DNA of 64,000 nucleotides from Spirochaetales bacterium (GCA_016936555.1 JAFGXR010000003.1:1-64000), one strand, 5' to 3'. Counted from the first letter of the stretch, positions 38,351 through 54,179 are shown. Numbers and translations are program-made. Notes: a model not told the origin generated them from the sequence alone.

Positions 38351-38383
38351 ATTAACTGATTCTTAACATAACCCTAATCTTTT
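38351..38383 (+). promoter_or_regulatory. Pho box-like array upstream of pstS
   Basis: Three 11-bp units, ATTAACTGATT, CTTAACATAAC and CCTAATCTTTT, place TTAAC-like cores at 38352, 38363 and 38374. The 11-bp spacing and core match PhoP/PhoB boxes of the Bacillus type. The site ends about 75 bases before the pstS ATG, and the same pattern precedes pstC and the chemoreceptor gene. Confidence 0.7.
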
Positions 38384-38457
38384 CCAAAAATAGCTCCCCT
38401 ATCTTGTGTTCAACAAAAGAGAATAATTTGCAATGCAAATATAAAGGAGTTTTTACG

Positions 38458-39450
38458 ATGAAAAAAGCACTGACAATGGTACTGGCCGCTCTTGTAGCCG
38501 CAACTGTATTCGCCGGCGGACAGCAGGAAGGCACAAAGGCTGATGATGGAAAATTCGCATGGATTACCGAATCTGAAGACGGAGTTCTTCCCGGAGTCAA
38601 TCCCCTTGAAGTCAGCGGAGATATCATCACCGCGGGATCTTCCACAGTATTCCCCCTTTCCGAAGCTATGGCTGAAAGATTCGCCGATGAAGGATACGCC
38701 TTCAACATAACCGTAGACTCTATCGGTTCAGGTGGCGGATTTGAAAGATTCTGTGTAGCCGGAGAAACAGATATCGCCAATGCATCCAGACCAATCAAAG
38801 ATAAAGAGAGAACAGCTGCTGCTGAAATCGGAAGAGAGCCCATCGAGTTCAGAGTCGGAACCGACGCACTGGCAGTAACTGTTTCCAGTAACAATACCTT
38901 TGTTAAAGATGTAACCATGGAAGAGCTGGCAAAAATCTTTACGTCCGAAAAATGGAGCGATGTAAGATCCAGCTGGCCCAACGAAAAAATCCTGAAGTTT
39001 ATCCCCGGAACGGACTCGGGTACTTTCGACTACTTCGTTGAAGAAGTATATGACAAGGATCCTTCTGCTCTTCTCGGAACCTCTGACCTGCAGATGTCGG
39101 AAGATGACAACATCCTGGTTCAGGGAATCTCCGAGTCGCCCTACGGTATCGGCTTTTTCGGATACGCCTACTATGTTGAGAACCAGAGTATCCTCTCCGT
39201 TCTCAATATCGACGGTGTCGAACCCAACAAGGCCAACGTCGATGCAGCGGCTTACCCCCTGGCGAGACCCCTGTTCATCTACTCCGATGCAAAAATCATG
39301 AAATCCAAGCCCCAGGTTGCCGCCTTCATTGCCTTCTACCTGACTTATGTCAATGAAGAAATTACTAGAGTCGGTTACTTCCCTGCCAATGAAAGCGTTC
39401 TTGCCGGCGGAAAACAGGCCTGGCTGAAAGCTGTTGAAGGCATGTACTGA
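38458..39450 (+). CDS. pstS: Phosphate-binding protein PstS
   Basis: A 330-aa exported receptor of the high-affinity phosphate importer. The signal peptide (MKKALTMVLAALVAATVFA) is followed by GGQQEGTKAD, with no cysteine. Phosphate-contact segments are AGSSTVFPLSEAMAERFADE, VDSIGSGGGFERF, DIANASRP, and PGTDSGTFDYFVEEV. The ATG at 38458 is chosen because AAAGGAGT lies 8 bases upstream and the signal peptide begins there. A Pho box-like array precedes it, and a terminator follows before pstC. Confidence 0.94.
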   Translation: MKKALTMVLAALVAATVFAGGQQEGTKADDGKFAWITESEDGVLPGVNPLEVSGDIITAGSSTVFPLSEAMAERFADEGYAFNITVDSIGSGGGFERFCVAGETDIANASRPIKDKERTAAAEIGREPIEFRVGTDALAVTVSSNNTFVKDVTMEELAKIFTSEKWSDVRSSWPNEKILKFIPGTDSGTFDYFVEEVYDKDPSALLGTSDLQMSEDDNILVQGISESPYGIGFFGYAYYVENQSILSVLNIDGVEPNKANVDAAAYPLARPLFIYSDAKIMKSKPQVAAFIAFYLTYVNEEITRVGYFPANESVLAGGKQAWLKAVEGMY

Positions 39451-39485
39451 TTCATTACCTTAAAAAGGATTAACTGAAATTATGT

Positions 39486-39517
39486 AAGAGGCTGTATTCC
39501 CGCAGCCTCTTTTTTTA
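39486..39517 (+). terminator. Intrinsic terminator between pstS and pstC
   Basis: AAGAGGCTG (39486-39494) pairs with CAGCCTCTT (39503-39511) across an 8-base loop, with a T-run to 39517. Confidence 0.9.
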
Positions 39518-39539
39518 TTCCAATTCTTCAGCAGGACGA

Positions 39540-39572
39540 TTTAACACAATCCTAACAATACATTAACCAATT
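39540..39572 (+). promoter_or_regulatory. Pho box-like array upstream of pstC
   Basis: TTTAACACAAT, CCTAACAATAC and ATTAACCAATT run end to end at an exact 11-bp period, the clearest array in the window. It lies 60 bases before the pstC start and just after the pstS terminator, so pstCAB-phoU has its own phosphate-controlled promoter. Confidence 0.75.
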
Positions 39573-39631
39573 ACCAAAACTCAGCTGATATTTTCACAAG
39601 AGACAATCAAAGATCTGTTAAAGGATATCAA

Positions 39632-40543
39632 ATGGCAGAAATAGACATGAACTGGTACAAGCCCAAGCCGAAGTATCATGAGAAATTCATCCAATGGTTT
39701 CTCCTCTTCTGTGCGGCCATCAGTATTTTTATTACATTGGGGATTATTATAATCCTCGGGCAGGAATCTCTGCTCTTTTTCAAGGAGGTCAGTATTGTCG
39801 AGTTTCTGACTTCGACAAGATGGCAGCCCATGATCGATGAATTCGGCGTATGGCCTCTTCTGAACTCCACATTGATAACAAGCTTTATCGCCATGGCAGT
39901 GGCAGCCCCTCTCGGGTTGTTTGTTGCTATTTACCTGAGTGAATACGCAACAGACAAAGTTAGGGGAATCCTGAAACCGATTCTGGAAATTCTAGCAGGA
40001 ATTCCCACAGTAGTTTACGGATATTTCGCCCTTACATTTATGACACCGTTGCTCAGACTGATCTTCGGTGCCGATACAGTGGATATCTACAACACAGCCT
40101 CTGCCGGCCTGGTTATGGGAATTCTCATTCTCCCTCTGGTCACTTCCGTTACAGAGGACGCCTTGAAGGCCGTGCCCTACTCGCTCAGGGAAGCCTCTTT
40201 CGGACTGGGCGCGACAAAACTGGAAACAAGTCTCAGCGTCGTCGTTCCCGCCGCATTCAGCGGCATAGCCGCCGCCTTCATTCTCGGGCTCAGCCGCGCC
40301 GTCGGAGAGACGATGATTGTGGCTCTGGCGGCCGGTGCGGGGCCGAACTTCACCTTTAATCCATTTAAAGCGGCGGAAACACTGACCGGCTATATCGTCC
40401 GCATATCAGGAGGGGACATCAGCTACAACACGGTTGACTACAACAGCATTTTCGCCCTTGGTCTCCTTCTGTTTCTCATTACGCTGACTCTGAACATAAT
40501 CAGCCGCAGACTGGTCCGCAAATATCAGGAGGTTTACGATTAA
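39632..40543 (+). CDS. pstC: Phosphate ABC transporter permease PstC
   Basis: A 303-aa membrane permease with six helices. The coupling loop is VPYSLREASFGLGATKLETS (about 180-199), and RAVGETMIVALAAGAGPNF is the PstC signature (about 226-244). It forms the channel with PstA, whose gene starts on its last base (TAATG overlap). AAAGGATATC precedes the ATG. Confidence 0.95.
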   Translation: MAEIDMNWYKPKPKYHEKFIQWFLLFCAAISIFITLGIIIILGQESLLFFKEVSIVEFLTSTRWQPMIDEFGVWPLLNSTLITSFIAMAVAAPLGLFVAIYLSEYATDKVRGILKPILEILAGIPTVVYGYFALTFMTPLLRLIFGADTVDIYNTASAGLVMGILILPLVTSVTEDALKAVPYSLREASFGLGATKLETSLSVVVPAAFSGIAAAFILGLSRAVGETMIVALAAGAGPNFTFNPFKAAETLTGYIVRISGGDISYNTVDYNSIFALGLLLFLITLTLNIISRRLVRKYQEVYD

Positions 40544-41772
40544 TGTCCGATTTTACCGACAACGTTAAACGCCGCATGAAGATAAGCAGCGGCTGGAATA
40601 TGGTTTTCACAATTTCAACTGTCATCGGCATCATCATGCTGATTATGCTGCTTCTCAATATCATCAATGGAGCTTTCGGCTATGTGGTTATTGAAAACAC
40701 CATAGAACCGACAGAGCTTGTCAGTTCGGGAAACCTGGACGAACTTCAGAAAGAAGATCTGATCGGGATACTGGAAGCGAACCTCTCGAAAGGCCTGATA
40801 CGCCGCTTCGAGAATGAAAAGGCCCTTGCCGACCGCTCGAAAACAGAGATCATGTCTCTTGTTTTCGAAAGAATCATTGAGCCGAGAGTCATAGAAAGCT
40901 GGACTCTGTCGGAATCCATCCTCGGGAAGAATGCCATTATTTCCCATTGCGAAGAAGAATACCCGGGAGCCCATATTCAGTTCCGGTTCTGGCTGAACGG
41001 AAATTTTCTGACAAAACAGCAGTCGAGCATTCCCGAGTTTGCAGGAATCAGAACAGCCATTCTCGGCAGTTTCATGATAATAATCATAACGGTTCTCTTC
41101 GCCTTCCCCGTCGGGGTGAGCGCGGCTATTTATCTGGAAGAATACGCGATGGATAACAGATTCACCCGGTTTATCCAGGTGAACATCTACAACCTGTCCG
41201 GCGTCCCCTCCATCATTTACGGCCTGCTGGGACTGACGGTTTTCGTACGCTGGATGGGGCCGTTGACAAGCGGTATTATTTTCGGTTTGAACGATCCTTC
41301 GACTTCCAACGGAAGAACCATTCTATCGGCCGGATTGACGCTGGGAATTCTCATCCTGCCGATTATCATCATCAATGCTCAGGAAGCCATCAGGGCCGTC
41401 CCCCAGTCACTCCGCCAGGCGGGATACGGAGTCGGTGCTACAAAATGGCAGACCATATGGTCCCATGTTCTGCCGATTTCAATGGACAGGATCCTGACCG
41501 GAACCATTCTGGCCGTTTCGAGAGCCATCGGGGAAACAGCCCCGATCGTTGTAATCGGTGCCTCGACTTTCCTATCGGTCGATCCTTCCAATATTTTCTC
41601 GAAGTTTACAACCCTGCCTATACAGATATATCAGTGGACTGCAAGGCCGCAGCCCGAATTCAGACATATCGCTGCCGCCGCGATCCTGGTCCTGCTGGCC
41701 ATGCTGCTGACAATGAACGGCTTTGCGATTTTCACCAGAAACAGACTAAACAGGAAAAGGAGTGCCAACTGA
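40543..41772 (+). CDS. pstA: Phosphate ABC transporter permease PstA, with enlarged periplasmic loop
   Basis: A 409-aa permease; typical PstA is 280-300 aa. The core is standard: coupling loop [20 protein letters not shown] (about 285-304) and [19 protein letters not shown] (about 326-344). The extra residues form a loop of about 120 aa between the first two helices (about 45-165), charged and partly helical ([20 protein letters not shown]), with no domain I recognise. It overlaps pstC and pstB by one base each. Confidence 0.93.
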
Positions 41773-42596
41773 TGAGCTCTCTAATGGAAGAAAACAGAGA
41801 AATGAAAAACAGGGATAACAATGCTGCCGAAAAGGATTATGTAGTCTCGCTTAAGGACCTGAATGTATTTTACGGCGATTTTCACGCAGTGGACAACGTC
41901 AACCTCAACCTCGAAAAAAACAAAGTTACAGCCCTGATCGGACCTTCGGGCTGCGGAAAGAGCACGGTTCTCCGCTCTATAAACAGAATGAATGAACTCC
42001 TGCCTGAAACAAGGGTTGAAGGCGAAATACTCTTCGACGGCATCAATATAAATCAGGCTAAAGTGGATGCCGTAGCCGTACGGAGACGAATCGGCATGGT
42101 TTTTCAGAAGCCCAACCCTTTCCCCAAGAGCATCTATGAAAACATTGCCTGGGGGGCCAAAATCAACGGCTACAAAGGCGATATGGATGAGCTGGTGGAA
42201 AAATCTCTGAAAAAAGCTGCTCTCTGGAAAGAGGTGAAAGACAAACTGAAGCAAAGCGCCATGAGGCTTTCGGGCGGACAGCAGCAGAGGCTCTGTATAG
42301 CCAGAACTATCGCCGTTGAGCCTGAAGTGATTCTGATGGACGAACCGGCTTCGGCTCTGGACCCCATTGCGACCGGACGGATCGAAGAATTGATCTTCGA
42401 ATTGAAGGAAAACTTTACCATAGCTATCGTGACCCACAATATGCATCAGGCGGGACGCATCAGCGACTACACGGCTTTTTTCCTGGTCAACAATGAAAGG
42501 AAGGGGCATCTGGTCGAATACGGCGTAACAAACGACCTGTTCCTCAATCCGAAAGACAAAAGAACCGAAGAATATATCAGCGGTAAGTTTGGCTAA
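41772..42596 (+). CDS. pstB: Phosphate ABC transporter ATPase PstB
   Basis: A 274-aa ATPase. Walker [20 protein letters not shown]-loop [15 protein letters not shown], signature [17 protein letters not shown], Walker [21 protein letters not shown] and H-loop [17 protein letters not shown] all match PstB closely. The ATG at 41772 overlaps the pstA stop (TGATG). A short N-terminal extension of about 20 aa precedes the ABC domain. A hairpin element and phoU follow. Confidence 0.96.
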
Positions 42597-42602
42597 AGAT
42601 AA

Positions 42603-42635
42603 TGCGCGGGGACGCGGTAGCGTCGGATCTGCGCA
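42603..42635. repeat. Hairpin element between pstB and phoU
   Basis: TGCGC (42603-42607) pairs with GCGCA (42631-42635), and inside it GACGC (42611-42615) pairs with GCGTC (42620-42624). GACGCGGTAGCGTCGGATC is nearly identical to the hairpin at 15379-15396. Confidence 0.5.
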
Positions 42636-42701
42636 CTTAGTCTGCCCGCTGATATCCAGAGAGATCTGATGCGGAAAATTAATAAGGAGCTTTATAAAAA
42701 C

Positions 42702-43358
42702 ATGGAAGTCAGAACCCATTTTCACAATGAATTAAACAGAGTCTTCCGGGACGTTATCACCATGGGGGATATGGTCCGGGATTTATTGAATAAAGGTCTG
42801 GACAGTCTGCTCAATGCCAATGAGATTCTGGCCAGGGAAGTTATAGAAGAAGACCAGAAAATCGACGATATGCAGATGAAGATCGAGGACGAGTGTACTC
42901 TGATCATAGCCAAGGAGACGCCGGTCGCTACGGAACTGAGGGAAGTCCTGACGGTGATAAAAATCGCCAATGAGCTGGAGCGTCTGGGAGATCATGCCAA
43001 ACACATGGCCAAAAGAGCCGGAAAGGTGAGCACGGAAGGATTGAAAATAGCCGGTCCGACTCTGAAGGAAATGAATGATTTCGGCATTCAGATGGTCAAA
43101 GAGGCCCTCGAGTCTTTTCTTGAGCTCGATTCGTCGTGGGCCAGGGAAATTGCCGAAAGGGATAATTTCATCGATCAGAAGTATTATGCCCTCTATGACA
43201 AACTGATAAACATTATAAAAGAGAAACCCTATAAAGCCGAAAACCTGGTACCCCTTCTCTTCCTCAACCGCTATCTTGAGCGGATCGGAGACAGGGTGAC
43301 CAATATCTGCGAATGTATCGTCTATTCGAAAACGAATAAACATGTCGAATTAAACTAA
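42702..43358 (+). CDS. phoU: Phosphate-signalling protein PhoU
   Basis: A 218-aa all-helical protein of two three-helix bundles that links Pst to the PhoR-type kinase and dampens the Pho response. Repeated metal-binding motifs are visible as EL..VLTVIKIANELERLGDH (about 75-95) and LLFLNRYLERIGDRVTNICE (about 185-205), the E/DxxxD pattern of PhoU. The ATG at 42702 is preferred to the in-frame ATG at 42669 because AAGGAG lies about 12 bases upstream and MEVRTHFHNEL fits the family N-terminus. Confidence 0.93.
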   Translation: MEVRTHFHNELNRVFRDVITMGDMVRDLLNKGLDSLLNANEILAREVIEEDQKIDDMQMKIEDECTLIIAKETPVATELREVLTVIKIANELERLGDHAKHMAKRAGKVSTEGLKIAGPTLKEMNDFGIQMVKEALESFLELDSSWAREIAERDNFIDQKYYALYDKLINIIKEKPYKAENLVPLLFLNRYLERIGDRVTNICECIVYSKTNKHVELN

Positions 43359-43555: not shown

Positions 43556-45373
43556 ATGGCTTTACGTCTCAGAACGAAACTGCTTCTCGGACCGACCATT
43601 CTGGCAGGCGCGATTCTGCTACTCGGACTGGTTGGGACAAGTACATCCAGAAAGCAGGCGGAACAGTTCACCACCTATGGAGAAATTGTCCCCTATATTG
43701 TCGAACTGGAAAACCTCAGGTACAGCCAGCAGAAGCTGATAAGCGGTCTCAACCAGCTTCTCAATCCCTCCAACGAACAGGAGGACTACGATATTATATT
43801 CAAAGATCTGGCAGGTGCCGAAAAGCTCTACACCTGGTCCCTCAGAAGTATTGAAGATTATCCCAAATCGGAAGAAGAGGAATTCCTCTATCAGGCTTTT
43901 CAGAAGAGCAATGAAGACTTCTACATTATTATAAACAGAGTTATTCCCAATGCCAAAGGGCGGCTGAAAGCCGGCCTGCCCAGGGAAATTGTCATAAATC
44001 AGATCAGTTTTCAGATCAGGGATGAGGGAACGGGAGATGTCTACAGAGAAACGGAAAAGAGGCTGTCCGAACTGCTTGATTTCTCAATCAACCACTATAC
44101 GGTTGACGTCCTGAATGAACATATCGACAGATCCATAGCGATAGGCTACCGCTTCCTCATATATGCGGCAGCTGTTTTTGTCTCAGGCCTGATATTCGCC
44201 TGGATCTATTCAATCAGGCTGAGCCGTCCCATCAGCAAAACGATTACGGGTCTCCAACCCCTTTCAACCGGTGATCTGAGGGGAGAAATCACAGTCGTCA
44301 GAAAAGACGAGCTCGGAGACATCAATAGAGGGATCAACACCTTAATCATCAATCTGCGCACTCTTCTCAATGATCTCTGGTCCAAGATGAGCCGACTTAG
44401 CTCCATTGATGACACAGTCGATAAAATCGCCCAGAGTACGGGAGCCGCGCTGACCCAGATAAACAGCAACATACAATCGACAGAAAACAGAATGAATGCC
44501 CAGATTTCCCATGTTGAAGAAACGGTACGGGTCCTCACAATCATGCAGGAAGGCGTTTTAAAGCTCAAAGAGGATATTTTCAGCCAGACCGGCTCTGTGG
44601 AGGAAAGCGCTTCGGCCATCGAACAGATGATGGTTTCATCGGCCTCCATCCGGAAAATGACTTTCAGCGCTGAAGAGAAAGTCAGCCATCTGGTCAGCGA
44701 TACGAACAGCGGGAAAGAAAAAATAGACTCGGTTATCGGCACGGCAATAAAGATGGCGGAAAACTCCGGTTATCTTATGGAAGCGAACAAAGTCATCAAC
44801 AACATTGCTTCACAGACCAACCTTCTGGCTATGAATGCCGCCATCGAGGCGGCCCATGCGGGAAATGCCGGGCGGGGATTTGCCGTGGTAGCCGATGAAA
44901 TACGGAAGCTGGCGGAACAGTCCTCCAGCCAGTCGAAGGAAATGGCGACCCGCTTGAAGGAAATTAAATCTTTTATTGACCAGGTGACCGAATCAAGCAG
45001 CCGCGCCGGTACGGTCTTCACGGAAATTCACGATTCGGTAGACCATGTCAGCGGAATCGTTGAACATATCTCCAACGCCATGAAGGAACAGGAAAACGGG
45101 TCGGAACAGATCAGCCGGTCGATGATACATCTGAGGGAAATCAGCGATTCGGTCAATATAAGCCGGGAGAATCTGGAACAGGGTAACAGGACCGTTTCAC
45201 AGACCTTTATGGAACTGAAGGATATCAGCCTGAAAGTGAAGGAAGCTCTGGTTGAAGTCTATGAGGGAAACCGGGAGATAGAAGAAAATTTCTCACAGAT
45301 GCGGGAAACCCTCCGGATCAGCCGGTCCGAATTGAACCAGCTGATAGAGGGAAGCCACTGGTTTAAGGTGTAG
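43556..45373 (+). CDS. Methyl-accepting chemotaxis protein in the phosphate cluster
   Basis: A 605-aa chemoreceptor. TM1 (about 8-27), a periplasmic helical domain of about 165 aa (30-195), TM2 (about 198-218), HAMP (about 219-275), then the signalling domain. The kinase-control hairpin [20 protein letters not shown] (about 420-439) and [18 protein letters not shown] are fully conserved. It follows phoU and has its own Pho box-like array, so its expression probably rises when phosphate falls. A role in taxis to phosphate or phosphorylated compounds is inference; the ligand domain is not one I can assign. GAAAGGA precedes the ATG. Confidence 0.93.
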
Positions 45374-45383
45374 AAATCATTTT

Positions 45384-45405
45384 CTTAACCGTATTTTAAA
45401 AGATT
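45384..45405 (+). promoter_or_regulatory. Weak Pho box-like pair upstream of ugd
   Basis: CTTAACC (45384-45390) and TTTAAAA (45395-45401) are 11 bp apart. The second is degenerate, so this is weaker than the other three arrays. It lies about 60 bases before ugd. Confidence 0.35.
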
Positions 45406-45465
45406 CCGAATATCCCGTTCACAATTCTGTAATGTAATTTCCCCAGTAACTCAGAGGAGAAGTTC

Positions 45466-46812
45466 ATGTCAAAAAATATCTGTGTCGTCGGGACAGGTTA
45501 TGTCGGCCTCATAGCGGCTGTCGGTCTGGCTGATTTTGGAAATCAGGTAATTGCCGTCGATAAAAACGCAGGCAAAATTAAAATGCTCCAGGCCGGAAAG
45601 TCCCCCATTTATGAACCGGGTCTCAGCGACTATCTTCAGCGGAATCTTGAGGCAGGACGTCTGGCCTTTACGACTGATACGGCCCTGGCTATCAGAGAAT
45701 CCGATGTTGTTTTCATAGCCGTGGGAACTCCTGAAGGTTTTGACGGACAGCCCAATATGAATCATGTGACGGAAGTGGTCCATTCCATTGCTGATAATCT
45801 CGATTCTTATAAAGTCATTGTCATAAAATCAACCGTTCCGGTCGGTACGAACCGGAGAATAGAAAAGTATCTGAAAACCCGATGTTCCGAACAGGAGTTC
45901 GATGTCGTCAGTAATCCGGAATTTCTGAGGGAAGGCAGCTCAGTTCAGGATTTCTTTCACCCGGACAGGACTGTTATCGGCCACAGTTCTGAAAGAGCGA
46001 AACAGGTTATGTTCGAAGTTTACAGAGCTTTGAATCTGATCTCCGTTCCTTTCCTCTGGTGTTCCCTCGAGACCGCAGAGCTCATCAAGTATGCGTCCAA
46101 TGCCTTTCTGGCTACAAAAATCACTTATATCAATCAGATGGCCAACCTGGCGGAGGAAGTCGGAGCCGATATTCATCAGGTAGCCGGAGCCATGGGTATG
46201 GATGGAAGGATCAGTGCGAAGTTTCTTCATCCCGGTCCCGGATACGGCGGGAGCTGTTTCCCGAAAGACACGAAAGCGATTGTCGCTACGGGAGATCAGT
46301 ACGGTGTGGACATGTCTCTTATCCGAGAAGTAGTCGAAGCCAATGAGAAGCAGAAGAAAAGGGTTGTCAGCCGGCTGGAAGAGAAGCTTGACAGTCTGGC
46401 GGGGAAAACAGTTGCCATACTCGGTCTGGCCTTCAAACAGAGAACCGATGATGTGAGGGAAAGCCCGTCCATTACCATTGTAAACGAATTGATTTTCAGG
46501 GACGCGCAGGTAAAAGCCCACGATCCGGAAGCCATGGACAATTTTAAAAAGCATTTTCCCTATATAGATTATTGCGAGAACTGGGAAGAGGCTGTGAAGG
46601 ACGCGCATGTGCTTATTATTGCCACAGAGTGGAATGAATACAGAAGCCTCGACCCCCGGAAAATGAGAGAGACAATGAAAGGCAATCTCATCTGCGACAC
46701 GAGAAATCTTCTCGATCCCCGGCCATTCATGGATATGGGATTTGATTATATGGGAACAGGACGCCCCTTTATAAATAGTAAACAACTATCGGAAATCCGG
46801 ACAGTTGTATGA
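45466..46812 (+). CDS. ugd: UDP-glucose 6-dehydrogenase
   Basis: A 448-aa NAD-dependent enzyme that makes UDP-glucuronate by two oxidations. Rossmann motif VVGTGYVGLIAAVGLADFG (6-24), KSTVPVGT, SNPEFLREGSS (about 147-157), and the catalytic Cys in GPGYGGSCFPKDTKA (about 263) are all present, as is the C-terminal LGLAFKQRTDDVRESP. CAGAGGAG precedes the ATG. It is 16 bases ahead of the PHP-glycosyltransferase, so its product is likely the donor, or a precursor of the donor, for that enzyme. Confidence 0.96.
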   Translation: MSKNICVVGTGYVGLIAAVGLADFGNQVIAVDKNAGKIKMLQAGKSPIYEPGLSDYLQRNLEAGRLAFTTDTALAIRESDVVFIAVGTPEGFDGQPNMNHVTEVVHSIADNLDSYKVIVIKSTVPVGTNRRIEKYLKTRCSEQEFDVVSNPEFLREGSSVQDFFHPDRTVIGHSSERAKQVMFEVYRALNLISVPFLWCSLETAELIKYASNAFLATKITYINQMANLAEEVGADIHQVAGAMGMDGRISAKFLHPGPGYGGSCFPKDTKAIVATGDQYGVDMSLIREVVEANEKQKKRVVSRLEEKLDSLAGKTVAILGLAFKQRTDDVRESPSITIVNELIFRDAQVKAHDPEAMDNFKKHFPYIDYCENWEEAVKDAHVLIIATEWNEYRSLDPRKMRETMKGNLICDTRNLLDPRPFMDMGFDYMGTGRPFINSKQLSEIRTVV

Positions 46813-46828
46813 TTGAGAGGTATTTCGG

Positions 46829-49501
46829 ATGAATAAAGAAGGATCTTTCCGCGACTATATCCGGACCGAGCTGGACAGCTTTCTTCTGGCCCGGCAGAAA
46901 GAGATAGAAATTGACAGCGATACGTTGAAAATAGACCTGCACTGCCATGATAAAAACAGCGACCAGCCGGGGGAACGGCTGGGACGGATTCTGGGGATTC
47001 CCGAAACTTGGCTTAAAACCGGTAAACTTATTGAATGTCTGGAGAATAACCGGACATCGGCGCTGACCATCACAAATCACAATAATGCCAGAAGCTGCTG
47101 GAATCTGCTCGACAAAGGATATGATATACTTCCAGGAGCCGAGTTTACCTGTACTCTTCCCGGTTCAGGATGCACCATACATGTCCTCACCTACGGTTTC
47201 AATCCCCTTCAGGAGGCGAAGCTGAACTCGCTCCGGGACAATTTGTACAGATTCCTGGAATACTGCCGGACAAAGGACATTCTGACCATATGGGCCCATC
47301 CGCTTTACTTTTACCCGAACAGGTTTTCCCCTCAGGCCATTGATGACCTGGAACATATGGCAACTCTTTTTTCCCATTTCGAAGTGATAAACGGACAGAG
47401 AAACTCCTGGCAGAACCTCATCACCATTAAATGGCTCAAATCCTTTGATGAAGAGAAAATCGACAGGATTTCCCGAAAGTATCCTGTAAACATCAGAAAT
47501 CTCTGCGCCGATCCCGGGGCGATGATTATGGTCGGGGGCTCCGATGACCATATGGGGCTGTTCGCCGGCAGCACGGGAACCTATGTAAAAATTCCCGATC
47601 TGAAAGAAAGGCTGAAAACATCGACAAGGGCCGATCTCATCCTCGACGGATTGAGAATGGGCGATGTGGCGCCATACGGCTTTTTTACGGAAGAGGATAA
47701 AATGTCCATAACCTTTCTCGAACTTTTCTACGGGATCGTAACCCAGATGGAAGATCCGGGGCTCATACGGATGATGCTCCATCAGGGGACCAAAAACGAG
47801 AAGCTTCTCGCTTTTCTGATCACCAATGGAATAAATGAGCTGAGACGCCACAAATTTACCATGCAGTTTCTCAAGACTTTCCACAAATCGCTCCATGGGG
47901 TCGGCCCGGAAAAGTGGAAAAAAAGCTTTGTGAAGAAATCAACAAAACCGCTTCTCGGGGAAATAGAGAATATCGCCCGTGCCAAAAAGCTCGATACAGA
48001 GATCTATGTCCGGGAAACAAGGCACACCCTCGATCATCTTTTCAACCGCCTGACAAAGCAGATAATAAGCCGGGGAGGAGAAAACATAAGCGAGCTGAGC
48101 CGGAAAAATCAGATTGGGGAAATCAAACTTCAGGAATTTCTGGAAAAGATAGAACTTCCCGCATCATTGAGGCACCTTTTCGGCGAAGAAGCGGAGTCGA
48201 AGGCCGGAACCATCAATGCGGGGAAAATTTTCGACAGGCTATCTTTTCCCGCTCTGGCTTCTTTCATAATCGGAGCCGTCAATTTTACCAGCACCAAAGT
48301 GCTTCACGACAACAGGCCGTTTCTCGATCACTTCGCCCGGGAGAACGGACTGAAAACTCCCGCGAAGAGGATGCTGTGGCTGACAGATACCTTTACGGAT
48401 AAAAACGGTATAGCGATAAGCCTCAATAACTATTACGATGAGGTCTGCCGTCGGAATCTTCCCGTCGATTTTCTGGTCTGCCATGAAACTCTGGAATCAG
48501 CCGGCCATCTCATCGTGACCAGGCCTCTGGGATCTTTTCCGATTCCTCTCTATAAGGAACAGTCTATTCGCATTCCCGATATCATGGCGATTCAGGATAT
48601 TTTCAAGAAAGGCGATTACGACAGGATTATCTGTTCCACCGAATTGCTTATGGGCGCAGCGGGAATCTATCTGAAGCAGAGTTTCAATGTTCAGGCTTTC
48701 TTTTTCCTTCATACGGACTGGCTCGAATTCGCTTCTGCCAAACTGGAGCTCGATGAACAGAACCTGAACAGACTGACCCGCTTTGCCAGGAGTTTCTACC
48801 AATCATTCGATAAGCTGATAGTACTGAACCGTGATCATGCCGACTGGCTGGCTGGACCGAAAATGAATATCCCCCGGGAAAAAATTTTTGCGACCAGGCA
48901 CTGGCTCAATAAGGACTTTACCAGAGGCCTTGAAGAAACGGACAGCCCCTGCTACATCAGGAAGAAAAATGAGAAAGTGCTGCTTTTCGTCGGACGGCTC
49001 AGTGAAGAAAAAGGGCTGCTCGATTTTCCGGAGATCGCAACGGTTGTGGCCGATCAGGCCGGTCCGGTCAAGGTTATTTTCTGCGGAAGCGGGCCGGCAA
49101 GGGCAAAAATGGAAACACTGCTGCCCGACGCTCTGTTTATAGACTGGGTGGATCAGTCCGAACTGGGATCGGTTTACGCTTCTGCTGACTTTCTGGTTTT
49201 TCCCTCCCGGTTCGACACATTCGGCCGGGTGGTTCTGGAAGCCCTCTACTGCGGCTGTCCCGTCGCGGCCTATAACGAGAAGGGACCGAAAGACATAGTG
49301 GAAGACGGTGTCAGCGGAATCCTCAGAAATAATCGCTACGATCTGGCGGAAGCAATAGCCGCGGTTCTGAAAGATGAGGTGGCACACAGACAGATGCGTA
49401 ATGAGGCGATAAAACGGTCAGCTCAGTTTGACAGCGAAAAAATACTCAAACAGTTTCTCGGCAATACAGGTCTGTATGAGGAAGTAGAGGTACCGGTCTG
49501 A
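46829..49501 (+). CDS. Fusion of a PHP metal-dependent phosphoesterase domain and a GT4 glycosyltransferase
   Basis: An 890-aa protein. Residues about 30-270 form a PHP domain with metal ligands in order: HxH in DLHCHDK (38, 40), His84 (TNHNN), Glu105 (PGAEF), His118, His157 (WAHP) and DDH 239-241. A helical linker follows (about 290-520). Residues about 525-885 are a GT-B glycosyltransferase of family 4: WLTDTFTDKNGIAISL resembles the N-terminus of the SqdX/MgtA/Agt lipid-glycosyltransferases, then LFVGRLSEEKGLLDFPEI and the donor-site FPSRFDTFGRVVLEALYCG (a D-x7-E variant). It overlaps the next gene by one base. Both activities appear intact. A role in glycolipid synthesis is inference from the ugd and Pho context. 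Confidence 0.8.
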   Translation: MNKEGSFRDYIRTELDSFLLARQKEIEIDSDTLKIDLHCHDKNSDQPGERLGRILGIPETWLKTGKLIECLENNRTSALTITNHNNARSCWNLLDKGYDILPGAEFTCTLPGSGCTIHVLTYGFNPLQEAKLNSLRDNLYRFLEYCRTKDILTIWAHPLYFYPNRFSPQAIDDLEHMATLFSHFEVINGQRNSWQNLITIKWLKSFDEEKIDRISRKYPVNIRNLCADPGAMIMVGGSDDHMGLFAGSTGTYVKIPDLKERLKTSTRADLILDGLRMGDVAPYGFFTEEDKMSITFLELFYGIVTQMEDPGLIRMMLHQGTKNEKLLAFLITNGINELRRHKFTMQFLKTFHKSLHGVGPEKWKKSFVKKSTKPLLGEIENIARAKKLDTEIYVRETRHTLDHLFNRLTKQIISRGGENISELSRKNQIGEIKLQEFLEKIELPASLRHLFGEEAESKAGTINAGKIFDRLSFPALASFIIGAVNFTSTKVLHDNRPFLDHFARENGLKTPAKRMLWLTDTFTDKNGIAISLNNYYDEVCRRNLPVDFLVCHETLESAGHLIVTRPLGSFPIPLYKEQSIRIPDIMAIQDIFKKGDYDRIICSTELLMGAAGIYLKQSFNVQAFFFLHTDWLEFASAKLELDEQNLNRLTRFARSFYQSFDKLIVLNRDHADWLAGPKMNIPREKIFATRHWLNKDFTRGLEETDSPCYIRKKNEKVLLFVGRLSEEKGLLDFPEIATVVADQAGPVKVIFCGSGPARAKMETLLPDALFIDWVDQSELGSVYASADFLVFPSRFDTFGRVVLEALYCGCPVAAYNEKGPKDIVEDGVSGILRNNRYDLAEAIAAVLKDEVAHRQMRNEAIKRSAQFDSEKILKQFLGNTGLYEEVEVPV

Positions 49502-51225
49502 TGGATCTTTTCCTAATCGACACCCTTTCGCCTTTCTTCGCCCCCCTGCCGGACGGTGAAGAGTACAACTGGTCAAAAGTTCCCTTTACGCTGCTTGAAG
49601 GGCCCGACGGTTTGGATGTCGATAAGGAAATACAGATTATCGATGCGTTCGGTCATTACGTCAGGAAAGTCAGCGGCCTGGGGTACAATGCCGTTACCAT
49701 TGATGAATTATGCCGCATGGTCGATTTCGACTTTTACAACGCCGCCCTGCGGAGGAAGCTGGAAGGGTACAGGAGTTTCTATAAAAAGATATTCTCCATA
49801 GCCGCAGAGAATAATCTGAAAATATACGTCACGACAGACATCATGTTTTTCAATAGGGATATCGAGGAGTACCTTGGGAAGCGCCGGAAAAAGGAATCGA
49901 TCAAACAGCTACTTCGTGTCTCGATAGAAAAACTCTTCCGCGAATACCCCGGGATATCCGGCGTTGTCTTCCGGCTGGGCGAATCGGACGGTATGGATGT
50001 GGAGGGGGATTTCATTTCACGCTTATTCATAAAAAAACCGGAACAGTGCCGGAAAGTTGTCCACGACCTCATCCCTCTTTTTGAAGAGAAGGATAAGACG
50101 ATGATCGTTCGGACCTGGACACTCGGGGCTTATCCCATCGGCGACCTGATCTGGAACAGAGCGACGCTCGACAAAGTCTTCCGCAATATGGACAGCGAGA
50201 ACCTCATTATTTCCCATAAGTTCGGAGAGGGGGATTTTTTCCGGTATATGAATCTCAATCCCCATTTTTACGATGAGGGTACTTACCGGAAAATCATTGA
50301 GCTGCAGGCGAAAAGAGAATACGAGGGATTCGGAGAGTTCCCCTCCTATGTGGGCAGGGAGTATGAGAAATTCAGCCGTTATCTTAAACAGGCGGAAAAT
50401 ATGCAGGGAATCATGGTCTGGGCGCAGACCGGGGGATGGTCGCATTTCAATCGCCTGACATACGGCCGGCGATCATCTCTCTGGGTGGAAATCAATATCG
50501 AAGTCATAATCGCTCTGTTCAGAGATGAGCTGAAATCCGAAGAGGCTGTGTACAGATTCGCTGAGAGAAATCCCGATTTACAGGACGGAGAAAAGCTGCT
50601 GGAGCTTCTGAAACTGTCGGACAGAGTCGTACGGAATCTCTGGTATCTGCCCGAGTTCTCTTCCCGCAGAATGTATTTCCGCCGAAACCGTATTCCGCCG
50701 CTGCTCTGGAATGTCTGGGACAATATTCTGATAAGCCATTCCCTGAGGAGCGTCATCCGCCTTTTCGTTCTGGAAAAAAAGGAAGCCGTTTTGGACGGTT
50801 ACAGGTTCCTGAGAAAAATAAAGAGAATGAAGAAACTGGCCTGTGAACTGGGAATCGATACGGAACAGTTCGATTTTATGTACGACACTTTCCGTATCGT
50901 TGCACTCGGAAGAGAGTATTATCTGAGCCGATGGAATCCGGGGTTTCAGGAGAAGCTGTCCGGACTCAGTGCGAAATACAGAAAAAAATACCCCGGGGGA
51001 TTCCACATTATCGAGGGATATGCCCTTGTTCAGCCGAAAAAATGGATAATCAGGACATTATTCGTTCTGGCTATCAGAAATTACCCCCAATACAGGCTAA
51101 TCGATAAACTGGTACTCATCCGCTTCTCTTCTCTCATATATTTACTAGTGAGTCTTTTTAACCGGAAGAAGCTTCCCGCTTTTCTGGAGGAGAAAGCCAT
51201 GGGCGTTCAGACTCTCCTCAAGTAA
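49501..51225 (+). CDS. Uncharacterised TIM-barrel protein, GH67-like
   Basis: A 574-aa protein I cannot name from sequence identity. Its middle part (about 100-340) resembles the TIM barrel of alpha-glucuronidases (GH67): YVTTDIMFFN, an acidic FRLGESDGMDVEGDF site, RTWTLGAYPIGD, HKFGEGDFFRYMNLNP, and IELQAKREYEGFGEFPSY parallels the GH67 segment with a conserved ELQITQEY block. No signal peptide is visible, and the C-terminus ends in hydrophobic and basic stretches (about 515-550, LFVLAIRNYPQYRL and SSLIYLLVSLF) that may touch the membrane. It is translationally coupled (TGATG) to the PHP-glycosyltransferase. A glucuronide-processing role is inference. Confidence 0.65.
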   Translation: MDLFLIDTLSPFFAPLPDGEEYNWSKVPFTLLEGPDGLDVDKEIQIIDAFGHYVRKVSGLGYNAVTIDELCRMVDFDFYNAALRRKLEGYRSFYKKIFSIAAENNLKIYVTTDIMFFNRDIEEYLGKRRKKESIKQLLRVSIEKLFREYPGISGVVFRLGESDGMDVEGDFISRLFIKKPEQCRKVVHDLIPLFEEKDKTMIVRTWTLGAYPIGDLIWNRATLDKVFRNMDSENLIISHKFGEGDFFRYMNLNPHFYDEGTYRKIIELQAKREYEGFGEFPSYVGREYEKFSRYLKQAENMQGIMVWAQTGGWSHFNRLTYGRRSSLWVEINIEVIIALFRDELKSEEAVYRFAERNPDLQDGEKLLELLKLSDRVVRNLWYLPEFSSRRMYFRRNRIPPLLWNVWDNILISHSLRSVIRLFVLEKKEAVLDGYRFLRKIKRMKKLACELGIDTEQFDFMYDTFRIVALGREYYLSRWNPGFQEKLSGLSAKYRKKYPGGFHIIEGYALVQPKKWIIRTLFVLAIRNYPQYRLIDKLVLIRFSSLIYLLVSLFNRKKLPAFLEEKAMGVQTLLK

Positions 51226-51358: not shown

Positions 51359-52813
51359 ATGGTGAAAATGAAAATGAAGCAGATGGCTGCTGCCCTGCTG
51401 GCTCTTCTTGTCAGCATCAATCTATACGGGGAAGGACAGAAGGACACGATCGGTTCCGCTGATTCATCCGCCGACACTCAGGCGAAATACGTATTTCTGT
51501 TTATCGGCGACGGCATGTCCCTGACTCAGATCAACGCGGCCGAAGCCTATCTCAAAGCCGGCAAGTCCGGTGAAATCGGAGTTGAGAAACTCGCCTTTAC
51601 CCAGTTTCCCGCTCAGGGGCTGACAACCACTTACGATGCCGGTTCTTTTATTACGGACTCCGCTTCCGCCGGCACGGCCATCGCCTCGGGAAACAAAACT
51701 CTTTCCGGTGTCATCAACATGGATGTGACAAAAACTCAGAAGTTCACAACTATTGCCGAATTGGCTAAAGATGCGGGAATGAAAGTCGGAATTCTCTCAA
51801 GCGTCAACCTGGACCATGCGACGCCGGCCAGCTTCTACGCCAAAGAAGAAACCCGGAACAATTACTACAACATCGGCGTGCAGATGGCCAACAGCGATTT
51901 CGACTACTACGCCGGCGGACTGATCAGAACGACGAAAACTCCCGACGGACAGACTCCCGTTCTCGATATCATGAAGAATAACGGCTGGTCTATCGCCACG
52001 ACAAGAGATGAACTGAACAGTCTGAAGCCCTCTTCGAACCAGGTTTACGCCTACTACAACACCAGTCTGACAACAAACTCTCTCGACTACGCCCTGGATA
52101 TGGAAGCCGATGATATCACACTCGCCGAGTACACGAAAAAGGGAATCGAGCTTCTGGACAACGAGAACGGTTTCTTCATGATGGTAGAAGGGGGAAAAAT
52201 AGACTGGGCCTGCCACGCCAATGACGCCGCGGCCTCCATCAGCAATACCATAGCTTTCGACAAAGCGATCCAGGAGGCCATGGCATTCTACAATCAGCAT
52301 CCCGAAGAGACTCTGATCATCGTTACGGGAGACCATGAAACCGGCGGACTGTCTCTCGGTTTCGCCGGTACAGGTTACGATTCGGCTTTCACAGAAATCT
52401 CCAAACAGAAGATGAGTTATGAAGCTTTCGACAAGTATGTCGCCGGGCCTTTCAAATCGGAGAATCCCGAGGGGACACTGGCCCAGCTGATGCCCGCCAT
52501 CGAAGAGAACTTCGGTCTTACCGATTTTTCAGATTATGAATCGGGACTGCTGAACAAAGCCTTCAATGCCATGATGAATGGTGCGGGACAGGATGAGGAA
52601 TCCTATATTCTCTATGGCGGATACAATCCCCTGTCCGTCACGCTGACTCACATTCTGAACAACCGCGCGGGACTGGCCTGGACATCCTACTCCCACACCG
52701 GAGTGCCTGTCGCGACTTTTGCCATGGGTGTCGGTTCGGATATGTATAACGGTTACTACGACAACACGGATATTTTCAAAAAGACCTCCGCCCTTATGGC
52801 CGTAGCTCCCTGA
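51359..52813 (+). CDS. phoA: Alkaline phosphatase
   Basis: A 484-aa exported phosphomonoesterase that releases phosphate outside the cytoplasm. The signal peptide (MKQMAAALLALLVSINLYG region) is followed by EGQKDT. The metal site FIGDGMSL (about 46-53), the nucleophile Ser in ITDSASAGTAIASG (about 101) and the later ligands VEGGKIDWACHANDA (about 277-291) and GDHETGGLS (about 323-331) are all there. AAAGGAGAA precedes the ATG. It follows the GH67-like gene after 133 bases and belongs functionally to the phosphate cluster, although I see no clear Pho box directly upstream. Confidence 0.95.
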   Translation: MVKMKMKQMAAALLALLVSINLYGEGQKDTIGSADSSADTQAKYVFLFIGDGMSLTQINAAEAYLKAGKSGEIGVEKLAFTQFPAQGLTTTYDAGSFITDSASAGTAIASGNKTLSGVINMDVTKTQKFTTIAELAKDAGMKVGILSSVNLDHATPASFYAKEETRNNYYNIGVQMANSDFDYYAGGLIRTTKTPDGQTPVLDIMKNNGWSIATTRDELNSLKPSSNQVYAYYNTSLTTNSLDYALDMEADDITLAEYTKKGIELLDNENGFFMMVEGGKIDWACHANDAAASISNTIAFDKAIQEAMAFYNQHPEETLIIVTGDHETGGLSLGFAGTGYDSAFTEISKQKMSYEAFDKYVAGPFKSENPEGTLAQLMPAIEENFGLTDFSDYESGLLNKAFNAMMNGAGQDEESYILYGGYNPLSVTLTHILNNRAGLAWTSYSHTGVPVATFAMGVGSDMYNGYYDNTDIFKKTSALMAVAP

Positions 52814-53018: not shown

Positions 53019-54179
53019 ATGTTAACGACATTTAAAAACCGGGACCGGAATCTCACTATCGTTCTGGCCCTGATTACGGCGGCGCTTTTTTTTATTCCCG
53101 ACTATTTCGGCAAACCGCCCTCTCTCCCTGTGGAACGGGTCAGGGCTGAAGTCCTGGCGGTGGATAATTTCGGAGTCGAACAGTTCGGAATCGTCAAGAC
53201 CGGCGATCAGGCTCTGACCTTAAAGGTCCTGAGCGGATCTTTCCGGGGAGAGATCATAGAGGGGACAAATCTGCTGATGGGCAAGCTGGAAATGGATAAG
53301 TTTTTCGCACCGGGAGACAAAGCCCTCGTGACCATCAATCTCAACAGGGAAAAGACCCGGATCCTTTCCAATCAGGTTGTCGATCACTTCCGGATCCGCA
53401 TAGAGCTGTTCCTATTTCTTCTCTTTCTGGCTCTGCTGATCGCCTACGCAGGCTGGACGGGCATTAAAGCGGTTATTTCCTTTATCTTTACAGCTGCTAT
53501 CATCTGGAAAGTCATGATTCCCGGATTTCTTACGGGACTGCCTCCCGTTCCGCTGGCTCTGGGAGTTGTTGTCGCCATGACCTTCGTTATCATCTTTCTG
53601 ATCGGCGGGATTTCCAGGATGGGTGTGACGGCATTTCTCGGCGCCATATCCGGTGTGGGAGTCACCGCTCTGCTGTCTCTGATCTTCGGTTCGGCTTTTA
53701 AAGTGCACGGAGCCGTGAAACCCTTCGCGGAAACACTGTTGTATTCGGGGTATCCCGAACTGGATCTTACGGCGATCTTTCTCTCCGGTATTTTCCTGGC
53801 CTCTTCTGGGGCTGTTATGGATATCGCCATGGACATTTCCGCTTCCATGAGAGAGGTCCTGATAAAACATCCCCGTATGCACAGAAAAGAATTGATCCTT
53901 TCAGGACTGCGCGTCGGACGGGCCGTCGTCGGAACCATGACCACGACTCTTCTCCTCGCCTATTCGGGAGGGTATACGTTTATCCTGATGGTATTTATGG
54001 CCCAGGGAACGCCGTTGACCAATGTATTCAACCTCGTTTACGTCAGCTCGGAAATTCTCCACACTCTGGTAGGCAGTTTCGGACTGATTCTGGTAGCGCC
54101 CTTAACAGCCCTGATCGGCAGCTTTGTCCTCACCTCTCCGTCTCCTGCTTCTCTGCTCGCATCAGCACAGGCAGACTGA
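53019..54179 (+). CDS. YibE/F-family membrane protein
   Basis: A 386-aa integral membrane protein. One helix (about 13-28) is followed by an extracytoplasmic beta-rich domain of about 100 aa (RAEVLAVDNFGVEQFGIVKT), then seven to eight helices with the family segments FVIIFLIGGISRMGVTAFLG, SGAVMDIAMDISASMREV and GRAVVGTMTTTLLLAYSGG. Its function is not known in any organism as far as I recall. GAGGTAATT precedes the ATG. No partner gene is apparent. Confidence 0.88.
   Translation: MLTTFKNRDRNLTIVLALITAALFFIPDYFGKPPSLPVERVRAEVLAVDNFGVEQFGIVKTGDQALTLKVLSGSFRGEIIEGTNLLMGKLEMDKFFAPGDKALVTINLNREKTRILSNQVVDHFRIRIELFLFLLFLALLIAYAGWTGIKAVISFIFTAAIIWKVMIPGFLTGLPPVPLALGVVVAMTFVIIFLIGGISRMGVTAFLGAISGVGVTALLSLIFGSAFKVHGAVKPFAETLLYSGYPELDLTAIFLSGIFLASSGAVMDIAMDISASMREVLIKHPRMHRKELILSGLRVGRAVVGTMTTTLLLAYSGGYTFILMVFMAQGTPLTNVFNLVYVSSEILHTLVGSFGLILVAPLTALIGSFVLTSPSPASLLASAQAD

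Follow-up and report, generated by a model that had tools for sequence, protein, structure and literature searches.

What is known of membrane lipid renovation under phosphate stress comes mainly from bacteria with the phosphoesterase PlcP, and a genome that has no PlcP is usually taken to be incapable of it. The PlcP-Agt system, which pairs this phosphoesterase with a family 4 glycosyltransferase (GT4), is known from Phaeobacter, SAR11 and Pseudomonas aeruginosa (PMC4796936, PMC8231724, PMC8528852). Agt2 of P. aeruginosa makes glucuronosyl-diacylglycerol (PMC8528852), and Flavobacterium johnsoniae has a phosphate-induced PlcP that is filed under PF12850 (PMC8115612). Here we analyze a three-gene cassette in a 64,000-nucleotide stretch of DNA from a Spirochaetales bacterium (GCA_016936555.1, JAFGXR010000003.1:1-64000; the whole stretch is called the window). 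The cassette comprises ugd, a gene that fuses a PHP phosphoesterase domain to a GT4 domain, and a gene for a protein resembling glycoside hydrolase family 67 (GH67), referred to as gene 3. Judging from sequence comparisons, we consider it rather likely that this is a Pho-regulated membrane lipid renovation cassette in which phospholipids would be swapped for glucuronosyl lipids by one fused enzyme. An earlier note on this DNA had proposed a system of this kind; its interpretation appears to point largely in the right direction, and overall it is partly supported, with stronger support now than could be had from reading the sequence alone.

The three genes are tandem open reading frames (ORFs) on the + strand, situated between pst-phoU and phoA, and ORF and domain analysis confirmed the arrangement described in the earlier note. 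The first gene, ugd (45466–46812), encodes a predicted UDP-glucose 6-dehydrogenase of 448 amino acids. After a gap of 16 bp follows the gene for the PHP-GT4 fusion (46829–49501, 890 amino acids), which overlaps gene 3 (49501–51225; a GH67-like (beta/alpha)8 protein of 574 amino acids) in the sequence TGATG, so that the reported coupling of these two genes also stands. Ugd is unambiguously a nucleotide-sugar dehydrogenase: it contains all three UDPG_MGDP_dh Pfam domains (PF03721, PF00984, PF03720) and passes the TIGR03026 cut-off, its best named model is TuaD (484.9 bits), and its gene is the sole match at E≤1e-50 in its own genome. UDP-glucuronate, the product proposed previously, is the one predicted at the level of the family. 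Like the PlcP-Agt system, the locus combines a predicted phosphoesterase with a GT4, Pho-box-like repeats and a setting of phosphate genes. It differs in that the phosphoesterase has the unrelated PHP fold and is fused to the GT4, whose best models are not specifically Agt-like, and in having ugd within the operon and a GH67-like partner gene (elsewhere one of family GH13) on the 3′ side.

The fusion protein consists of a PHP domain (residues ~30–270), a helical linker (271–510) and a GT4 domain (511–885). Its homologues fall into subfamily A (mostly 875–940 amino acids, 40–67% identity) and subfamily B (about 600–920 amino acids, about 30% identity). The PHP-plus-linker half was matched in 46 of 296 sampled genomes of the spirochaete phylum. 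Beyond the spirochaetes, subfamily A occurs in Neptunomonas, Achromatium, a Desulfobacteraceae, an Acidobacteriota and Bacteroidales genomes; no homologue was found on plasmids at E≤1e-40. Three loci (L061, 11592–12646; L060, 3141–4218; L064, 4018–4746) have a metallo-beta-lactamase-fold protein close to the PHP-GT4/GH13 pair, with the fold confirmed by Pfam for L061 only. In L061 its gene lies between those for PHP-GT4 and GH13, and in both L060 and L061 it is accompanied by a short neighbor protein.

Neither the window protein nor 13 of its subfamily A relatives matched the PHP family model PF02811, and the N-terminal half of a subfamily B homologue (L073) scored 25.5 bits (1.9e-5), marginally below the cut-off of 26.4. 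Alignment of the PHP half by hhalign with a genuine PHP protein of the same genome gave a probability of 92.5. The metal-ligand residues H38, H40, H84, E105, H118, H157, D239 and H241 are conserved at 96–100% across 28 homologues. These results bear out the earlier assignment of a PHP phosphoesterase with its metal ligands in place. Both the metal-ligand pattern and the fold-level profile agree with those of known PHP phosphoesterases (histidinol phosphatase, polymerase PHP domains, CpsB/Wzb-type capsule phosphatases). Unlike these proteins, the window's PHP domain is fused to a GT4 through a long helical linker, is not accompanied by capsule genes and presumably acts on a lipid. The linker contains a conserved hydrophobic helix (472–493) that might touch the membrane.

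The GT4 half is identified with certainty (PF00534, 8.6e-28; 97.4 bits against a cut-off of 26.4). Its predicted model has a GT-B fold, and the donor-site residues R723, K728 and E804 are kept. The best matching folds are MshA and BshA, with sucrose-phosphate synthase-like folds also among the matches, and the best NCBIfam model is BshA, far below its cut-off. Such results can be expected for many GT4 enzymes. The resemblance to SqdX, MgtA and Agt that the earlier note had seen was not recovered, since no specific closeness to these enzymes is apparent from the best models and folds, a comparison made without Agt reference sequences.

A split form of the system provides the main argument that the PHP domain does the work of PlcP. 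In two Bacteroidales genomes (L048 and L049), a stand-alone GT4 that is 41–42% identical to the fused domain is followed by GH13 and adjoined by a second GT4, an LpxH/PlcP-group phosphoesterase, and either Pit or pst-phoU genes. The split loci share with the window a homologous GT4 and phosphate transport genes close by; they differ in lacking PHP, in having the PlcP-like phosphoesterase and second GT4 adjacent, and in having GH13 instead of the GH67-like protein. The best model for the second GT4 of L049 is monoglucosyl-diacylglycerol synthase, and the L049 phosphoesterase matches PF12850, the same family as the PlcP of F. johnsoniae (PMC8115612); a PDB sequence search with the PlcP-like protein returned nothing useful. 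Each split genome has a better LpxH-like gene elsewhere (91–108 bits) in addition to the distant extra one (51–53 bits), whereas the LpxH model picked up a single LpxH-like gene in each of the six fused Bacteroidales genomes to which it was applied, and nothing closely related to the extra gene was present in any of the seven fused Bacteroidales genomes. A quick tree of the GT4 domains places the split pair within the clade of fused subfamily A proteins (97% node). Given that PHP is missing exactly where a PlcP-like gene adjoins the GT4, and that this pair is nested among fused relatives, the two phosphoesterases appear to do equivalent work: PHP was probably lost and replaced by a PlcP-like enzyme, so that PHP would do PlcP's job. 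PlcP-like proteins are nearly absent in Spirochaetota, where the LpxH model gives only weak, mostly partial matches, and neither this model nor the L049 protein found a match in the window's own genome; the model does match in the controls E. coli, Caulobacter and Bacteroides. The suggestion that one fused enzyme stands for a phosphoesterase and a glycosyltransferase thus gains support from a comparison of genomes, with the PlcP-like neighbor occupying the place of PHP in the split form.

Phosphate control of the cassette is supported by putative regulatory sites and by gene linkage. Inspection of the intergenic DNA revealed TTAAC repeats spaced 11 bp apart in front of pstS and ugd. When the window was scanned for TTAACA-N5-TTAACA, an 11-bp direct repeat with the geometry of TTAACA-type Pho boxes, the three best sites preceded pstC, pstS and ugd. 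The third-best of these, TTAACCGTATT-TTAAAAGATTC (45385–45406, + strand), lies ~60–80 bp before the start of ugd. The two better-scoring sites, also on the + strand, are TTAACTGATTC-TTAACATAACC-CTAATCTTTTC before pstS (38352–38384) and TTAACACAATC-CTAACAATACA-TTAACCAATTA before pstC (39541–39573). Among related loci, the repeat was found before 22 of 35 PHP-GT4 homologues, compared to 21 of 151 unrelated genes from those loci (p=1.3e-8, in AT-rich upstream regions). The excess is greatest at spacings of 11 (16/35) and 22 (17/35); all other spacings between 7 and 23 give 1–10 of 35, and the control genes, 151 in number, have no peaks at 11 or 22. As the TTAACA motif was picked after viewing these sequences, it is the spacing test and the controls that carry weight. 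A proteobacterial Pho box (CTGTCAT type) was considered for the Neptunomonas homologue and rejected, as the only match was at chance level and elsewhere in the locus. A fourth, weaker TTAACA-type repeat occurs at 53036 on the - strand, at the start of a membrane-protein gene (53019–54179).

The phosphate neighborhood is present and proved wider than the earlier note had stated. On the 5′ side lie pstS-pstC-pstA-pstB-phoU, for phosphate uptake and signaling (38404–43358, + strand; identified by sequence recognition and by matches to the PstS, PstC, PstA, PstB and PhoU regions of related loci), followed by a gene for a methyl-accepting chemotaxis protein; the next gene 3′ of gene 3 is phoA, encoding alkaline phosphatase (51359–52813, + strand; PF00245, 5.3e-64). 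Between gene 3 and phoA there is no convincing terminator, and promoter-like matches are at chance level. The chemotaxis gene (43556–45373), between phoU and the repeat before ugd and within the phosphate cluster, could encode a phosphate-related chemoreceptor. In other genomes, phosphate genes occur within 6 kb of the fusion in subfamily A loci L038, L039, L051, L060 and L063 and in subfamily B loci L070, L073, L076, L077 and L085, and in L137 the fusion is accompanied by the complete pstSCAB-phoU genes and one for a PhoB-type response regulator. By a rough estimate that assumes a 4-Mb genome with one or two pst loci, such linkage would be expected by chance in ~1/100 cases. Together, the Pho-box-like repeats common to pstS, pstC and ugd and the recurrent linkage to pst, phoU and phoA uphold the proposed connection of the system to phosphate.

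Gene 3 is GH67-like by profile comparison. As a single sequence it matches only PF07488 (GH67), with E=0.16 and 11.5 bits against a curated cut-off of 23.5, and 3 of the 12 members of its family match this model (best 0.0064); it falls below the family's curated cut-off and is therefore not a GH67 member. When a profile of the 12 members was compared by hhalign with four true GH67 alpha-glucuronidases, the probability was 89 (P=2e-6, 237 columns). The GH67 motifs I-K-x-G-x-x-D-F and E-x-Q-x-x-x-E-Y-x-G, which supply catalytic Asp and Glu residues in that family, align to D245 and E273 of gene 3, both invariant in 12/12 members. A structure prediction from two sequences was poor (pLDDT 46) and shows eight strand-helix repeats; its fold matches, assorted TIM-barrel glycosidases, carry little weight, and we prefer the profile comparison. 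A PDB sequence search with gene 3 returned nothing useful. The glucuronidase-barrel look noted earlier thus holds at the level of profile and motifs, but the PF07488 cut-off is not reached and the acid motif is altered, with GESDG where GH67 has KADSEG. While gene 3 shares the barrel core and the Asp/Glu motifs with GH67 alpha-glucuronidases, it also has a different C-terminal half and a phosphate-linked setting instead of one of xylan use. A true GH67 alpha-glucuronidase gene is found elsewhere in the window's genome (L122, contig C127), adjoining a GH3-type-looking glycosidase gene, so the GH67 family proper is separate from gene 3. Two relatives of gene 3 occur without the fusion in settings of their own, one (L101, 8248–10939) between pstSCAB-phoU and, on its 3′ side, a gene of the diacylglycerol kinase family, the other (L104, 7184–10902) directly 3′ of a polyphosphate kinase gene.

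The partner genes also bear on which sugar the GT4 domain would transfer. A GH13 alpha-glucosidase-like gene lies directly or closely 3′ of the fusion in 19 of 30 subfamily A loci; because most relatives have this partner and no adjacent ugd, glucose is the likelier sugar in them. Gene 3 replaces GH13 in the window, in its nearest relative (L035, a Spirochaetaceae contig from a metagenome-assembled genome) and in three subfamily B loci (L073, L077, L081). The 3′ end of a ugd gene precedes the fusion in L035, and ugd adjoins subfamily B genes in L069 and L071; the combination of ugd with the GH67-like partner is confined to the window and L035, and one or the other occurs alone in part of the distant subfamily. 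The rule that gene 3 implies ugd is not strict, as no ugd match was found in genomes G053 (77% complete) and G077. The genome of L035 (G399) likewise gave no match in the genome search, though L035 itself holds the 3′ end of the gene. In the quick tree, the GT4 domains of the window and L035 sit on a long separate branch. Its own ugd, the GH67-like partner instead of GH13, and this branch suggest glucuronate as the window's sugar with moderate confidence, and not more, because ugd is also common in GH13-type genomes. UDP-glucuronate as donor, as the earlier note proposed, is thus favored by the window and L035 but finds no counterpart beside the fusion in most relatives; the same can be said of co-occurrence with ugd, in contrast to the recurrent linkage to phosphate genes.

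These observations suggest the following mechanism. When phosphate is low, a Pho regulator would act at the TTAACA-type repeat before ugd, as the site shared with pst implies, and Ugd would make UDP-glucuronate. The PHP domain would strip the phosphate-bearing head group from phospholipids, or the phosphate from phosphatidic acid, to leave diacylglycerol, as the domain replacement in the split form suggests. The fused GT4 would attach a sugar to this diacylglycerol, and in the window glucuronate is the most likely one; the product would be an acidic glycolipid free of phosphate, most likely with an alpha linkage because GT4 enzymes retain configuration. In the weakest step, the GH67-like protein may remove or turn over alpha-glucuronosyl groups of the lipid or of its breakdown product, taking the place of the GH13 alpha-glucosidase-like enzyme of the presumably glucose-type relatives.

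Several points weigh against this proposal. We know of no PHP enzymes that act on lipids, and the best models and folds of the GT4 domain point to no particular closeness to the known GT4 enzymes of lipid synthesis. The main weakness of the swap argument is that there are only two split genomes. Many homologue loci have no phosphate gene within 6 kb, and ugd is not confined to genomes with the GH67-like partner. Among the remoter relatives of gene 3, with 31–39% identity (L103, L105–L108), L103 (8539–10389) lies in a mur/fts cluster and L105 near a Bac_transf polyprenyl-phosphate sugar transferase; these settings indicate that the gene-3 family has other uses.

Four alternatives were weighed with these points in mind. 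The same fused enzyme could transfer glucose, in which case ugd would have another purpose and the substrate of gene 3 would be a different glycoside. Some Agt enzymes are known to use either donor (PMC8231724), and the predominance of GH13 without adjacent ugd, with ugd elsewhere in many of those genomes, also favors glucose. Given the ugd gene in the same operon in the window and L035, their GH67-like partner and their separate GT4 branch, we regard glucose as unlikely here, though it retains appreciable weight. A second alternative keeps the lipid pathway but has PHP act on another phosphate, for instance a regulatory one or that of a lipid head group which is phosphorylated after transfer, with diacylglycerol coming from other enzymes. 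The precedent of a PHP phospholipase is lacking, as far as we are aware, and the PlcP-like replacement is confined to the two split genomes. However, virtually every homologue retains the metal ligands of PHP, and PHP was lost exactly where the extra PlcP-like gene adjoins the GT4, which makes this alternative improbable.

It is also quite improbable that the genes form a soluble-sugar pathway, in which GT4 would make a phosphorylated glycoside (compare sucrose-phosphate or glucosylglycerol-phosphate), PHP would dephosphorylate it, and the GH13 or GH67-like enzyme would degrade the product. Fusions of a GT4 and a phosphatase with this logic are known for sucrose, small phosphate esters are the typical substrates of PHP enzymes, GH13 typically goes together with soluble alpha-glucosides, and the GT4 fold matches include sucrose-phosphate synthase-like ones. 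On the other hand, phosphate-starvation control and linkage are ill-suited to an osmolyte, and in the split form the GT4 stands beside a PlcP/LpxH-group enzyme and a diacylglycerol-glucosyltransferase-like GT4. The teichuronic acid operon of Bacillus (tuaA-H), with its Pho-regulated Ugd and glucuronate in place of phosphate, resembles the window, and TuaD is the best named model for Ugd. A comparable phosphate-sparing, glucuronate-containing surface polysaccharide is nevertheless very improbable, because the cassette has one glycosyltransferase only and, unlike tuaA-H, no polymerase, flippase or export genes, none of which were recognized beside the fusion homologues either. The neighbors suggestive of polysaccharide or cell-wall synthesis, which the earlier note held would count against its proposal, are found near some gene-3 relatives (L103, L105), but no polysaccharide cluster surrounds the PHP-GT4 fusions.

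Returning to lipid renovation as the preferred reading, a broader version of it, to which we give slightly less than even credence, is that PHP-GT4, which is present in at least five phyla, carries out lipid renovation in a single chain. Its PHP domain would act on phospholipids, a new substrate class for PHP, and hand diacylglycerol to its own GT4, making it a non-homologous replacement for PlcP; glucose and glucuronate head groups would be exchanged in modular fashion, along with ugd and the glycosidase that suits the sugar (GH13 or GH67-like). Searches of the open-access literature turned up no account of PHP-GT4 fusions in lipid metabolism. If the proposal is true, this would be, as far as known, the first PHP enzyme to act on lipids, and the matched glycosidase partner would make the undoing of the glycolipid on the return of phosphate testable. 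Many anaerobic and sediment bacteria would gain lipid renovation, including about one-sixth of the sampled spirochaete genomes as well as Desulfobacteraceae, Achromatium, Neptunomonas, Acidobacteriota and Bacteroidales, and plcP-based surveys would underestimate how widespread lipid renovation is.

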